This document shows, piece by piece, positions 22,169 to 27,392 of a stretch of DNA of 64,000 nt. Location: NCBI RefSeq assembly GCF_014652415.1, contig NZ_BMYT01000008.1, positions 62,326 to 126,325 on the forward strand, written 5' to 3'. The position numbers and the translations under genes were made by a program. How positions within the stretch are numbered: position 1 is the stretch's first letter; each line of letters starts with the position of its first letter. The notes beneath the pieces are model-generated. The model searched no databases. It was not told where the DNA came from and saw only the letters and a program-made list of their open reading frames with translations. This DNA comes from Affinundibacterium macrobrachii (GTDB taxonomy: Bacteria; Pseudomonadota; Gammaproteobacteria; Burkholderiales; Burkholderiaceae_D).

Positions 22169-23569
22169 TTACCGCGAGTACAAATCAATAATCGTCGAAA
22201 TCCCATCCTGACAGACTCGACAGAATTGCTCGCTACGGTCAAACATTAAGCATTGCATTTGTGAACGGTAATAACCTTTTGCTTCATAGTTCGCACCTTC
22301 GAATGCGCCTATAGTTTGGTAATTTGGATCTTTGCTAAATAACTGACTCGATTCGTGCAAATCTTTTTTGAACAAGGCACTCATTTCTGATTCTGGGCGA
22401 TTGTTTTTTCTTAGTTCAGCACGTACTTTTTGGAATTGGCGTGCGGCATTTTCGTAGATTTCCTTTGGCCATGTAGTGGGTAGCTTTGTATCCGCGCTCA
22501 CATACTGTTTCCACTTCAATTGGGTTTTATCTTTTAAAGCGGTGACATTGGGTTCCCATGGCTCGGTTTGAATTTCATTCCCTGTTTGGTAGGCAACCGG
22601 CGAAGTATAGTATTCGTCCGCCAAGCCAGCAAAATGGTGGCCAAACTCATGTACAAACAAATAATTTGCCCAGTCACTGCCCGCCGCGGCGGTTGAGAAT
22701 TGTCCAAAAATACCGCCGCCGCCATAAGTGTCGTTATTGACCAGAATTTCAATGAATTCATAAGGTGCATGTTGAGCGATCTCGCGTAAGGCGCGATTGT
22801 CTAGGGTGAGTACATAGCGCTCACTGCCAAAAATATCATAGCTCGCACCTGTAGTTGAAGCATGAAATTTCCCTGTTGATGGACGTGATACGCCCGCCTG
22901 TTTTGTGGGAACTGCCAAGCCCCAAACATTAAAGTCTTTTGCGCGCTCTTTGAAAGGCGATACAGTGAATAGAAATTGGCTTAGTCGTTTAGCGTCTGCG
23001 ACAAATTTCCCCATTTGTTTTTGCGTATAGCCGTCACCAATAATGAGTAAATCCACTTTATCCGTTGGTGCGCCACTTACATGAATAGGAATGGGTTTGA
23101 GTTCGGCACCTGCTTGCTTCCTGATGACATCTGGCGCATCGGTATCGATATCCACATTCCATACCAATTGAAACTGGTTTTGCGCATCACGTTTCAAGAT
23201 GCGTATGTTGACGGGTTTGGTCGGTTTGGGAAAACGTAAAGATTCTTGAAAGCCGCGATCAATTTTGCTTGCTTCCGCGGTGCTTTGCCATTCCGCGAAG
23301 ATGGTAGAAAATCCGCGCGAATAAATTAATTCGCCGCTTGCTTTATCTCGCACCTCAAATAAATTCACGCCACGATTTGTTTGATCGATATTCTTATGTA
23401 GATTGCCAGGCCAAAGCAGCGGTTCGATTAACACGCGGTCTAAAGCAAAATGCTCGGTCTTCGCATTGCCGCTGTGTAGATAATCAACGCGAACCGTGGC
23501 GACTTGGGCAATGCTGACATTAGCAATCCACAGCAAACCAATACCAACTGCTTTGAGTAAAGATTGCAT
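22169..23569 (-). CDS. Secreted M64 family zinc metallopeptidase
   Basis: A signal peptide (about 21 residues, ending SIAQ/A) leads to a 466-residue protein. The catalytic motif HEFGHHFAGLADEYY near residue 305 matches the M64 (IgA peptidase-like) pattern HEFGHxxAGLADEY. Upstream DLLIIGDGYTQKQMGKF is the other family landmark. Four cysteines cluster at the C-terminus (QCLMFDRSEQFCRVCQDG). Clostridial M64 enzymes cleave IgA, but in free-living bacteria the substrate is unknown. GAAGGGGG upstream of the ATG is a strong ribosome binding site. Confidence 0.9.
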   Translation of the reverse strand: MQSLLKAVGIGLLWIANVSIAQVATVRVDYLHSGNAKTEHFALDRVLIEPLLWPGNLHKNIDQTNRGVNLFEVRDKASGELIYSRGFSTIFAEWQSTAEASKIDRGFQESLRFPKPTKPVNIRILKRDAQNQFQLVWNVDIDTDAPDVIRKQAGAELKPIPIHVSGAPTDKVDLLIIGDGYTQKQMGKFVADAKRLSQFLFTVSPFKERAKDFNVWGLAVPTKQAGVSRPSTGKFHASTTGASYDIFGSERYVLTLDNRALREIAQHAPYEFIEILVNNDTYGGGGIFGQFSTAAAGSDWANYLFVHEFGHHFAGLADEYYTSPVAYQTGNEIQTEPWEPNVTALKDKTQLKWKQYVSADTKLPTTWPKEIYENAARQFQKVRAELRKNNRPESEMSALFKKDLHESSQLFSKDPNYQTIGAFEGANYEAKGYYRSQMQCLMFDRSEQFCRVCQDGISTIIDLYSR

Positions 23570-23660
23570 TTATTTCCCCCTTCAATATTTGTGTAAGTAT
23601 TTTGCAGCACGCACGCAAAATCTTAACAGAGGAATAAACCTCGCTATCGAGAATCGCCAT

Positions 23661-23690
23661 AAAAAAAGCGTGACTGTTGCCAGCCACGCT
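23661..23690 (-). terminator. Terminator of the ibpA gene
   Basis: AGCGTG (23667-23672) pairs with CACGCT (23685-23690) with extra inner pairs, followed on the - strand by six or seven Ts. Confidence 0.8.
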
Positions 23691-23731
23691 AGGAGGGGAA
23701 CTTTAAAACTAAGTTGATTACTTGCAGATCA

Positions 23732-24205
23732 TTATGCAGCCTGTAGTTGATCAGGTGCTGCTACGTTGTTGACCGTGCGTAGTGGTTCGCCATCGATCAA
23801 GATACGACGAGGTTTGTGCGCCTCCGGAATTTCGCGTTGCAATTCAATATTGAGTAAGCCGTTGTCTAAGCGCGCGCCAACGACTTTAACGTGATCTGCT
23901 AGACGGAAGCTGTGTTCAAAATCGCGTGAGGCGATGCCACGGTGTAAAAAGGTGCCTTGGGTTTCTGGCTTGGCTTTACGACCAACTATTTTCAATACAT
24001 CACGTTCAGTTTCGATTTCGATTTCACTGCGATCAAAACCGGCGACAGCCATACTGATGCGATATTGATCTTCGTTGACCAATTCGATGTTGTAAGGTGG
24101 ATAGCTTGGCGTTGCCTCGGCACGTTGTGCTTCGTTGATGAGGTGAGCTAAGCGATCAAAACCGATTGCAGAACGGTAGAGAGGAGAGAAGTCAAAATTA
24201 CGCAT
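23732..24205 (-). CDS. ibpA: IbpA-type small heat-shock protein (Hsp20)
   Basis: ATP-independent holdase chaperone that binds aggregating proteins in the cytoplasm. The N-terminus MRNFDFSPLYRSAIGFDRL is nearly the same as enterobacterial IbpA. The alpha-crystallin domain spans about residues 38-130 (YNIELVNEDQYRISMAVAGF, HRGIASRDFEHSFRLADHV, LDNGLLNIELQREIPE). A short C-terminal extension carries PRRILIDG, with the I-x-I/V-like anchoring motif as ILI. Length is 157 residues. The 5' region holds a ROSE-like thermometer and a sigma-32-like promoter. Confidence 0.96.
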   Translation of the reverse strand: MRNFDFSPLYRSAIGFDRLAHLINEAQRAEATPSYPPYNIELVNEDQYRISMAVAGFDRSEIEIETERDVLKIVGRKAKPETQGTFLHRGIASRDFEHSFRLADHVKVVGARLDNGLLNIELQREIPEAHKPRRILIDGEPLRTVNNVAAPDQLQAA

Positions 24206-24275
24206 GATATATATCCTTATAAGTTGAAGCGATATGAATTAATTAAATTTGCAGACCTCACTTGAGCATCTGCTG
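24206..24275 (-). promoter_or_regulatory. ROSE-like RNA thermometer in the ibpA 5' UTR
   Basis: On the - strand the ribosome binding site lies in AAGGATA (24218-24212). It pairs with TATCGCTT (24234-24227), leaving one bulged G, to close an 8-base loop. The anti-Shine-Dalgarno strand thus contains UCGCU, the ROSE consensus UYGCU with the bulged G that makes the helix heat-labile. A second, upstream hairpin (GCAGAT/GTCTGC, about 24251-24273) completes a short multi-stem UTR. ROSE elements repress translation of small heat-shock genes at low temperature and open on heating. Confidence 0.8.
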
Positions 24276-24281
24276 ATTCGG

Positions 24282-24310
24282 ATATGTAGATGCCGAAAAG
24301 GCTTTTCAAG
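24282..24310 (-). promoter_or_regulatory. Sigma-32-like promoter for ibpA
   Basis: Read on the - strand: CTTGAA (24310-24305), 15 bases, then CTACATAT (24289-24282), which matches six of eight bases of the heat-shock -10 CCCCATAT. Transcription would start near 24275 and give a UTR of about 70 bases, a good length for a ROSE element. Confidence 0.5.
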
Positions 24311-24336
24311 AGAAAATAATTTATATTTTTGAGGGG

Positions 24337-24364
24337 CTTGAAAGACTTATTTTTGACCCCATTT
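24337..24364 (+). promoter_or_regulatory. Consensus sigma-32 promoter facing away from ibpA
   Basis: CTTGAA (24337-24342), a 14-base spacer and CCCCATTT (24357-24364) match the heat-shock consensus completely, but on the + strand. It points to the Ala-rich gene starting at 24670, about 300 bases on, with an AT-rich stretch (about 24490-24535) in between. Its product could be that gene or an unknown short RNA. Confidence 0.65.
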
Positions 24365-24669
24365 CCTTTCGCTTTTTTGAAGATCCTTAGTGATTTCTTT
24401 CGCTTTGGAAAGAGAAGATATTTAATTCCCACTCTTTTGGTTTTTCTATATCAGTGAAAAATAACTGCATGAAAAATGACGCAGTAAAAAATGATCTAAA
24501 TTTTTTAGGCAAAAAAATTTTTAAAAAAATTTGAAATTCGTGTCAACACAAAAAAACTTGAGCCCGTTGTGGATGTACGCAGCAAACACTGCGCAACAGC
24601 AAGACAAAATAAAGTTGTACCGGAATACAAAACTCACTTTAATTCATTTGATCTACATAGGAATTCATC

Positions 24670-25077
24670 ATGAAAAAAATCGCATTGACTATCATCGCAA
24701 CGACATTGTCTATGACTGCTGCATTCGCAAATGCAGAACAAACACCAGCGGCAAGTGCGAGCGCTAAGGCAGCAGTAGCAACGGCTACAGCACCAGCAGC
24801 GTCTGCTGCAACGCAAGCCGCTGCGCCAAAAGCAGCCGCAGCAGCGACAGCAGCCTCTAGTGCAGTCGCAAGCGCAACAACTAAAGCGGCTAGTGTTCCA
24901 GCAAGTGCGCCAAGCGCTACTGCAGCTAGCGTACCAGCAGCTGCAAAAGCAGCAGCGAGTGCTGATGTGAAAGGTGCACCAGCAAAGCACGCTGATAAAG
25001 CAGTGAAAAAAGTAGAAAAAGCAGTTGAGAAAACAACTGAAAAGGCAGCAGCATCGGTACCAGCTGCAAGTAAATAA
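24670..25077 (+). CDS. Exported Ala-rich low-complexity protein
   Basis: A 135-residue protein with a clear signal peptide (MKKIALTIIATTLSMTAAFA) followed by about 85 residues made almost only of Ala, Ser, Thr, Pro and Lys, then a basic helical tail (KAVKKVEKAVEKTTEKAA). There is no recognisable domain. Such sequences are disordered or lightly helical and may be periplasmic. The ribosome binding site AGGAA precedes the ATG. A sigma-32 type promoter lies 300 bases upstream on the same strand, which hints at stress induction. Confidence 0.75.
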   Translation: MKKIALTIIATTLSMTAAFANAEQTPAASASAKAAVATATAPAASAATQAAAPKAAAAATAASSAVASATTKAASVPASAPSATAASVPAAAKAAASADVKGAPAKHADKAVKKVEKAVEKTTEKAAASVPAASK

Positions 25078-25211
25078 GTAAGAGAATTTGTCGCTGAGTA
25101 AAACAGTGATTTGGTAAGCAAATTCACTCTATGGCAATATCGTAGATCCTCAGCCTCAAGTACAAATAGGCAGTAAAAAATGTAGTGCAAAAGAACGGAA
25201 AAGTGTAAACA

Positions 25212-25239
25212 CAAAACGGCGCATCTTTGCGCCGTTTTG
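25212..25239. terminator. Terminator after the Ala-rich gene
   Basis: CAAAACGGCGCA (25212-25223) pairs perfectly with TGCGCCGTTTTG (25228-25239) around a four-base loop; 4 Ts end the stem. It lies 135 bases after the stop codon. Confidence 0.8.
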
Positions 25240-25437
25240 CATTGAATGTGAGATGAAACTTGCGCGTTACGATAGCTCAAAATGGTTTTGAAACGCTGCG
25301 CAGTTGATCGCGCTTTTTTGCATTCTGCTCCCAAGAACTGACATTTCATCTTTTTTCGCAGACAATTTTAAAAAATACTGGCAGACTCGCATCACTCGAT
25401 GTAGTTCTTTACTTAATTTTTACTTACGGAGTTCCCC

Positions 25438-26070
25438 ATGCGCAAATTCATCGTCTCTTGTTTCACCGTTGGCTTGGTGCTTGCTAGTTCTTTCGCTGCG
25501 GCGGGTGAGCAAGTTCGCAAAGTTTCTCCTTTTAATACGATTCGTACGCAAGGCGCTTTGTCAGTTGAAGTGGTGGTTGGTAGTGTACATTCGATTACTG
25601 TCAAAGGCGATGATAAATACATGGATAAAATCATTACCGATATCGCAGGTGACGAGCTGTTGATCAGTTACAAAGAAAAGAAAAATATTCGTATTTCTGA
25701 TGATTTGAAAGTGATCGTGACGATGCCGACCTTGACCAAATTTAAAATGGAAGGCGCGGGTTTAACCACTGTTAGTAAAATTGCTGGCGAGCGATTTGAA
25801 TTAAATTACGAAGGCGTTGGATTATTAAAAATGAGCGGAAAAGTACGTGACTTTAAATTGCGTGCACAGGGTGTAGGCTTTGTCGATGCGAAAGGCTTGG
25901 TAGCCGAAAATGTTGACGCCACAGTAGAAGGAATTGGCTCGGTTGAAGTCACCGCAACTGAAAAACTGAAAGCGAATGTACAAGGCATAGGCTCATTAAA
26001 TTATTTTGGTAACCCTAAATCGATCAACAAAACGGTTGATGGTATTGGTGGTGTGAGTGCTGGAAAATAA
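25438..26070 (+). CDS. Exported DUF2807 (GIN domain) protein
   Basis: A signal peptide (about 22 residues, ending FAAA) is followed by one GIN/DUF2807 domain of about 185 residues. This is a right-handed beta-helix-like fold with repeating strands: FNTIRTQGALSVEVVVGS, LKVIVTMPTLTKFKMEGAG, KLRAQGVGFVDAKGL and VEGIGSVEVTATEKLKANVQ. The domain is called a putative auto-transporter adhesin head, but a role is not proven. A good ribosome binding site (ACGGAG) precedes the ATG. Confidence 0.88.
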   Translation: MRKFIVSCFTVGLVLASSFAAAGEQVRKVSPFNTIRTQGALSVEVVVGSVHSITVKGDDKYMDKIITDIAGDELLISYKEKKNIRISDDLKVIVTMPTLTKFKMEGAGLTTVSKIAGERFELNYEGVGLLKMSGKVRDFKLRAQGVGFVDAKGLVAENVDATVEGIGSVEVTATEKLKANVQGIGSLNYFGNPKSINKTVDGIGGVSAGK

Positions 26071-26165
26071 TTCTTCATTTGAATATTTTTGATGCTTGTA
26101 GACCGTTCTTTCGGATGACTAGAGTATGCAAGTTTAAAGCAGATTAAATTGGATTAGATGACAAC

Positions 26166-26205
26166 AAAAAAGCCAGCGAAGAATGATATCTTCGCTGGCT
26201 TTTTT
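26166..26205. terminator. Bidirectional terminator between DUF2807 gene and ald
   Basis: A perfect 17-bp stem (26166-26182 with 26189-26205) ends in A6 and T6 on opposite sides, so it serves both convergent genes. Confidence 0.92.
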
Positions 26206-26276
26206 ATTGTTCACCGCAAATTGTATGCATTAAATCAGGTGTAACAAATCACATATAGCAAATCGACCAAGTCCAA

Positions 26277-27392
26277 TTAACTGAGTAGACTTTCTGCCGC
26301 CACATATGGATAGCCGAGATCATGTGCAACAGCTGCATAAGTAACTTTGCCTTCGCACACATTTAAGCCATTGCGCAGATGTATATCGTCGCGTAATGCT
26401 TGTTTCCAACCTTTGCTAGCGAGAGCGATCGCATGTCCGACCGTTGCATTGTTTAAGGCGAATGTCGAAGTACGAGCAACCGCGCCTGGCATATTCGCTA
26501 CACAGTAATGAATGACGCCATCAACAACATAAGTCGGCTCAGCATGCGTTGTGGCATGAGAGGTTTCAAAACAACCACCTTGATCAATTGCCACATCAAC
26601 GACGACCGCCCCTTTTTTCATCCGCGAAATCAAACTACGGCTGACCAACTTAGGCGCAGCAGCGCCCGGAACTAGTACGCCACCAATGACGAGGTCCGCA
26701 GACAATACTGCTTCTTCGATTGATTGAGCATTGGAATAAACTGTTGAAATTCTATTGCCATAAACTAAGTCTAATTGACGCAGGCGATCAATACTTTTGT
26801 CTAACACGGTGACGCGTGCGCCCGTGCCGACTGCCATTTGCATCGCGTTGGTGCCGACTACACCAGCACCAATAATCACGATATGTGCAGGCGCTACACC
26901 CGGTACGCCGCCCAACAACAAGCCCATGCCACCTTTGGATTTTTCTAGATGTGCCGCGCCCGCTTGGATAGACATGCGGCCGGCCACTTCGCTCATTGGC
27001 GCAAGCAAAGGCAAGCCACCATTCGCACCAGTAATCGTTTCGTAGGCGATACAAATCGCGCCTGATTTTACTAAGGCTGCGGTTTGTTCTGGATCTGGCG
27101 CAAGGTGCAGGTAGGTGTACAAAATTTGTCCAGGGCGCAACATGGCGCACTCAATCGCTTGTGGTTCTTTGACTTTTACAATCATCTCGGCGCGTTCAAA
27201 AATCTCTTTGGCTGTCTCGACTAATTCCGCACCGACCGCGACATATTGTTCATCACTTAAGCCAATCTCCCCGCCTGCATTTTTTTGCACGAGCACTTTG
27301 TGGCCGCGTGAAGTTAATTCACGTACTGAGGATGGAGTCATGCCCACGCGATATTCGTGGTTTTTAATTTCTTTAGGTACGCCAACAATCAT
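26277..27392 (-). CDS. ald: Alanine dehydrogenase
   Basis: NAD-dependent interconversion of L-alanine and pyruvate plus ammonia in the cytoplasm. The N-terminus MIVGVPKEIKNHEYRVG, the GEIGLSDEQY segment, the Rossmann motif VIIGAGVVGTNAMQMA (about residues 172-187) and the C-terminal NMPGAVARTSTFALNNAT are all family hallmarks. The 371-residue length is normal. AGAGG precedes the ATG. It lies near an Lrp/AsnC regulator and the lysine cluster, so it may be part of an amino-acid catabolic neighbourhood. Confidence 0.97.
   Translation of the reverse strand: MIVGVPKEIKNHEYRVGMTPSSVRELTSRGHKVLVQKNAGGEIGLSDEQYVAVGAELVETAKEIFERAEMIVKVKEPQAIECAMLRPGQILYTYLHLAPDPEQTAALVKSGAICIAYETITGANGGLPLLAPMSEVAGRMSIQAGAAHLEKSKGGMGLLLGGVPGVAPAHIVIIGAGVVGTNAMQMAVGTGARVTVLDKSIDRLRQLDLVYGNRISTVYSNAQSIEEAVLSADLVIGGVLVPGAAAPKLVSRSLISRMKKGAVVVDVAIDQGGCFETSHATTHAEPTYVVDGVIHYCVANMPGAVARTSTFALNNATVGHAIALASKGWKQALRDDIHLRNGLNVCEGKVTYAAVAHDLGYPYVAAESLLS

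Follow-up and report, generated by a model that had tools for sequence, protein, structure and literature searches.

The DNA upstream of the heat-shock gene ibpA in the 64,000-nucleotide stretch analysed here (the window) contains a sigma-32 promoter sequence that points away from ibpA, which raises the question of what this outward site is for. The analysis described below leads us to think that it probably belongs to a bidirectional heat-shock promoter, whose outward sigma-32 transcription would read into the gene for a small Ala-rich exported protein, on top of an ECF-type control that is family-wide. The features concerned are listed in the table. Among the open-access papers listed in our literature searches, judged by title and abstract start, we found no description of this promoter pair, and, judged by title, nothing on Undibacterium heat-shock transcriptomics.

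Features of the region between ibpA and the Ala-rich gene, in window coordinates
Feature	Position	Strand	Basis
ibpA-type small heat-shock protein gene, 157 aa, Hsp20	23732..24205	-	Pfam HSP20, E 8.9e-18
ROSE-like ibpA leader	24206..24287	-	Predicted fold
ibpA sigma-32-like promoter, CTTGAA-N15-CTACATAT	24282..24310	-	11/13 by scan
AT-rich gap of 26 bp separating the -35 boxes	24311..24336	.	Gap length in relatives
Sigma-32 promoter, CTTGAA-N14-CCCCATTT	24337..24364	+	13/13 consensus match and conservation
Unconserved stretch of variable length	24365..24541	+	Comparison of clade loci; without a terminator-like site
SigAb-type ECF promoter proximal to the Ala-rich gene, GTCAAC-N17-CGTT	24542..24568	+	Module conservation; motif equals the SigAb core
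Hairpin, ACGCAG-CAAACA-CTGCG	24577..24593	+	Covariation
Small exported Ala-rich protein, 135 aa, 41% Ala	24670..25077	+	ORF; signal-peptide-like start read by eye

The outward site consists of a -35 box, CTTGAA (24337-24342), a spacer of 14 nt and a -10 box, CCCCATTT (24357-24364). The available excerpt of PMC4263515 gives the sigma-32 consensus as CTTGAA-N13-17-CCCCATNT; the site matches it at 13 of 13 positions with a spacer in range, which bears out the perfect + strand promoter claimed in the initial annotation. No other site with at least 12/13 matches and a spacer of N13-15 occurs on either strand of the window, and 60 first-order Markov shuffles of the window gave means of 0.18 such sites and 0.017 perfect ones. 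With the spacer widened, CTTGAA-N10-17-CCCCAT matches once in the window against 0.05 expected. Genome-wide, CTTGAA-N13-15-CCCCAT occurs four times, and not at all in the reversed control; the other three sites lie within or antisense to ORFs. To calibrate for the sigma-32 promoters of this genome we used CTTGAA-N13-15-CCNNATNT, which has 16 genomic matches against 6 in the reversed control, the majority of them in ORFs. The intergenic matches include sites whose -35 boxes start 63, 66 and 78 nt 5' of grpE, clpB and secB (by Pfam, GrpE, a Clp_N/AAA protein that we read as clpB, and SecB), implying that this genome uses the sigma-32 promoter class. At 24337, by comparison, the -35 box starts 333 nt before the Ala-rich ATG. 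The site is therefore like known sigma-32 (RpoH) heat-shock promoters in its consensus boxes and allowed spacing, but differs from them in its leader of about 300 nt, in the second promoter that lies in between, and in having an exported low-complexity protein as its putative target.

The site had also been placed back to back with ibpA. This is indeed the arrangement: the divergent Hsp20 gene is itself preceded, on the - strand, by a sigma-32-like promoter. The leader of ibpA is predicted to fold into two hairpins, with the Shine-Dalgarno AGGAUAU paired with AUAUCGCUU around a bulged G; for the one sequence folded the energy is -14.8 kcal/mol (z -1.67), a stability that 14 of 200 shuffles also reach. 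The excerpt of PMC3669281 gives the ROSE motif as U(U/C)GCU, and the UCGCU opposite the Shine-Dalgarno in the 3' hairpin fits it. By motif and fold, the leader can be classed as a putative ROSE-like thermometer: it shares the two hairpins, the Shine-Dalgarno opposed by UCGCU and the bulged G with the ROSE-like thermometers of that excerpt, but differs in that no Rfam thermometer matches up to E 1 in window positions 23000-26500. The AT-rich gap between the two -35 boxes is possibly a shared UP element. The locus also has genes for an M64 peptidase and a DUF2807 protein nearby, at 22169-23569 beyond ibpA and at 25438-26070 downstream of the Ala-rich gene.

A search of 60 genomes for ibpA gave matches in 36, and 30 of these were turned into loci. 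In nine of the 30, ibpA stands head to head with the Ala-rich gene. Eight of the nine have a perfect 13/13 site with a 14-nt spacer; in the ninth, L008, the boxes have decayed to ATTGAA-N14-CACCATTT (11/13). Two more head-to-head genomes were reached through the Ala-rich protein: L041 (13/13) and L044, where ibpA is partial on its contig and the site reads CTTGAA-N15-CCCCATTA (12/13). Altogether, 11 Undibacterium genomes have this arrangement, nine with a 13/13 site, one with 12/13 and one with 11/13. The initial annotation had proposed aligning the divergent region among homologues; in the alignment of these 11 genomes both boxes are kept, and the spacer and flank have drifted. Mean pairwise identity over all 11 rows, which include two close pairs and so are not independent, and with one L044 spacer base omitted, is 97% for the -35 box and 96% for the -10 box, as against 45% for the spacer, 39% for the 3' flank and 66% for the 5' flank. 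A narrower count, which leaves out L008 and takes the eight copies whose -35 is exact, gives 100% for the boxes, 52% for the spacer and 44% for the 3' flank. As judged from these alignments, the putative sigma-32 boxes are conserved beyond neutral drift in the relatives. The position of the three other exact sites, within or antisense to ORFs, would suit the idea that the 24337 site is a chance match or an inactive relic, but its boxes have been retained while their surroundings drifted, and are perfect in most of the genomes; we regard this explanation as highly improbable.

Is an outward site a general property of ibpA? We added 80 named loci (the best 80 among the matches listed) to the ibpA upstream set and dropped nine duplicates, which gave 101 distinct loci. 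In this set, with those best 80 among the matches listed included, 98 of the 101 loci have an inverted CTTGAA 60-200 nt upstream of ibpA, and 38 have a second CTTGAA that points away from it, whereas a scan beyond the ibpA -35 found no second box in the other 63; CTTGAA occurs in 23 of 4395 control tiles. At the -10 distance, 30 of the 38 outward sites carry CCCC (often CCCCAG, not CCCCAT), six carry CCC and two neither. The gap between the two -35 boxes is 25 or 26 bp in eight of the 38 (the window clade), 35 bp in one and exactly 2 bp in the remaining 29. This last, tight configuration of divergent sigma-32-like -35 boxes (TTCAAGnnCTTGAA), seen at 29 of the 101 distinct loci, is one in which two polymerases should compete. 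The gene on the outward side varies: it encodes thymidine kinase in other Undibacterium and the Ala-rich protein here; in Duganella, where one locus was tested, it encodes an M61 peptidase, and we had considered an S9 peptidase as the Duganella-type neighbour and rejected it. Because an outward CTTGAA is present in 38 of the 101 loci, the preferred interpretation of 24337-24364 is that it forms the outward half of a bidirectional sigma-32 promoter.

The same survey suggests a different function, in which the outward site serves ibpA itself, by holding or recruiting RNA polymerase or by supplying negative supercoils, and its transcript is a by-product. This would explain why the outward box occurs beside neighbours as unrelated as thymidine kinase and the Duganella M61 peptidase, why 37 of the 38 two-box loci (the best 80 among the matches listed included) have a -35 gap of either 2 or 25/26 bp, and what might assist an ibpA promoter that is here the weaker of the two, at 11/13. 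Nevertheless, the 63 ibpA loci without an outward site do not fit it, nor does the retention of both boxes, -35 and -10, in the window clade; such conservation points to transcription rather than to binding alone. We therefore consider a role confined to ibpA unlikely, and prefer a bidirectional promoter whose outward transcript matters in its own right.

What, then, would that transcript reach? The initial annotation had named the Ala-rich gene or an unknown RNA. Between the end of the -10 box and the ATG lie 158 to 305 nt across the nine loci, and the sequence between the sigma-32 site and the gene's own promoter is not kept among clade members. No + strand terminator-like site was found from the promoter to the Ala-rich gene, either in the window or in the nine loci, and no Rfam family reaches its gathering score in window positions 23000-26500. 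The best Rfam match, isrG, lies on the - strand inside the Ala-rich gene (E 2.1e-6; 33 bits against a gathering score of 100) and was taken as a composition match; a Pfam match of Pox_F15 to an overlapping ORF, 24531-24767, was set aside as below the cut-off. A small regulatory RNA or a short peptide made from 24365-24540 would find room in these roughly 175 nt, which contain one reading frame of about 21 codons (by eye). However, the stretch varies in length and sequence within the clade, in L002, the closest relative, the short frame is interrupted (by eye), and no terminator-like site would end such an RNA, all of which makes this product very improbable. With no such site and no conserved RNA on the way, the promoter is likely to be used for transcription that reads through into the Ala-rich gene. 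The target claim is thus upheld as regards the Ala-rich gene, the next + strand gene downstream, and disfavoured as regards an unknown RNA.

The Ala-rich gene also has a promoter sequence of its own. Directly before it stands a rigid module, GTCAAC-N17-CGTT-N8-ACGYAG-loop-CTRCG (24542-24593). The two boxes alone are unenriched, GTCAAC-N17-CGTT having 19 matches in the genome against 27 in the reversed control; adding the hairpin start makes the pattern specific. With 3-11 nt allowed before ACGYAG, a scan of 43 Undibacterium genomes finds the module in 40, with 79 matches in all and 8 in the reversed control; by coordinates this spacing is 8 nt in 78 of the 79. With 8 nt fixed, it is found in 39 of 294 family genomes, with 2 matches in the control: 25 of 26 genomes within the genus and 14 of 268 outside it, the latter in seven other genera. 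We read 59 distinct sites; two further matches belong to the seventh genus. At all 49 sites in Undibacterium the module precedes a small Ala/Lys-rich protein with a signal-peptide-like start, and the same type of protein follows it at all ten loci read outside the genus, in six genera. A stem pair of the hairpin covaries over these 59 modules (47 T-A, 10 C-G, none mixed, two without the 3' arm), and a transcript from the ECF promoter would be expected to carry the hairpin at its 5' end or close to it. In some genomes (G001, G011, G022 and G062), three or four modules lie a few hundred bases apart.

The GTCAAC/CGTT motif was derived here before we compared it with the core of the Acinetobacter ECF factor SigAb, which in the excerpt of PMC12153292 is GTCAAC (-35) and CGTT (-10) with a spacer of 16-18. 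The window sequence agrees with this SigAb-type pattern in both boxes, with a spacer of 17. It differs in its setting: the bacteria belong to another class, and the genes that follow encode exported Ala/Lys-rich proteins, whereas the direct targets of SigAb given in that excerpt are sigAb, relA and sabS. The same excerpt holds SigAb to be Acinetobacter-specific, implying that a different factor must read GTCAAC/CGTT here. An ECF sigma of the NF006550 type is a candidate reader, which we offer as a lead only. It is present in 42 of 43 genus genomes; in the window genome its gene (G000:C1:342746-343312, L222/L238) is followed by a DUF3619 gene. Of the 29 loci scanned upstream of this sigma gene (one of 30 was skipped), GT(A/C)AAC-N16/17-CGTT is present in 11, of which three are exact (GTCAAC-N17-CGTT, in L246, L255 and L256) and eight have one mismatch (GTAAAC-N16/17-CGTT, 87-101 nt upstream); it is absent in 18, including the clade members L248 and L249.

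Having its own ECF-type promoter, the Ala-rich gene would not depend on sigma-32 alone, and the sigma-32 site becomes an additional input that probably responds to heat. Of 60 modules, 8 have a sigma-32 site of at least 12/13 within 350 nt upstream, and all eight are beside ibpA; this suggests that the heat input is not a property of the family but a clade-specific addition. The opposite strand of the 60 segments has three matches, all of them the promoters of ibpA itself, so that 3/60 is no estimate of chance.

The protein that this gene encodes has no Pfam or PHROG family that we could find. Some of its relatives end in KAKHKKHAKK-like tails. It resembles the acid-shock protein Asr (NCBIfam NF033636) in being small and Ala/Lys-rich with a signal-peptide-like start, and a relative from G017 matches that model at E 7.8e-5, below the cut-off. 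In a scan of four proteins with NF033636, the best score was 23.4 bits against a cut-off of 50 bits, and the window protein had no match. By composition, then, the predicted protein is Asr-like in make-up and is not a member of Asr. Asr is a disordered periplasmic chaperone. The Ala-rich protein is probably disordered, and may be protective in the periplasm.

The history of the locus can be approached through the ibpA tree of the 30 loci. The nine head-to-head loci form one group (support 100/99), which stands beside nine loci with a thymidine kinase neighbour (fork support 88/66, midpoint root). Seven of the latter nine have the Ala-rich gene after thymidine kinase; of the other two, L024 shows no such gene and L014 stops short of the position. 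In the remaining 21 genus loci that were read, thymidine kinase is the neighbour of ibpA; the kinase of L013 was identified as Pfam TK. In the window clade, thymidine kinase lies elsewhere in eight of nine genomes (for example at G000:C2:153355-153900, L215), and G008 has no match. The idea that a relocated tdk carried the sigma-32 promoter with it was rejected: seven of the eight window-clade tdk genes have no exact CTTGAA within 320 nt upstream. The eighth, L218, has one; CCTTAT comes 15 nt further on, which makes the site a weak match (about 10/13).

Our model starts from what can be read in the DNA itself, namely both promoter motifs and their conservation, the lack of a terminator-like site and the family-wide ECF-type module; from these we infer that either promoter is active and that readthrough occurs. 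On heating, RpoH (sigma-32) would start ibpA leftward, with a ROSE-like thermometer in the leader, and would also start a second, rightward transcript near 24370. This transcript would run for about 300 nt, through the ECF promoter region and past no recognisable terminator, into the Ala-rich gene. The basic control of that gene would lie in its own GTCAAC-N17-CGTT promoter and the covarying hairpin near the mRNA start, with sigma-32 as an added heat input limited to one Undibacterium clade. We propose that, through this input, the levels of an envelope protein and of a small heat-shock protein of the cytosol increase in parallel.

A more extended scenario, which we hold tentatively and with rather less than even confidence, adds an origin. 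It supposes a small SigAb-type ECF regulon, marked by GTCAAC/CGTT and a 5'-terminal hairpin, in Undibacterium and in no fewer than six further genera of its family, and devoted to exported, disordered Ala/Lys-rich proteins. When thymidine kinase left the side of ibpA in one clade, the Ala-rich gene would have come to face the outward sigma-32 half, and this capture would then have been kept under selection. The outcome would be a pairing of a small heat-shock protein in the cytosol with an envelope protectant that is likewise under heat-shock control.

If the model is correct, the cytosolic heat-shock response is linked to an exported low-complexity protein, for which heat would offer a first condition of study. 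A further implication is that a SigAb-type ECF promoter, highly consistent in its target, is found far beyond Acinetobacter. Finally, the model suggests that ibpA regions are often two-way heat-shock promoters, the second target of which may be swapped in evolution.
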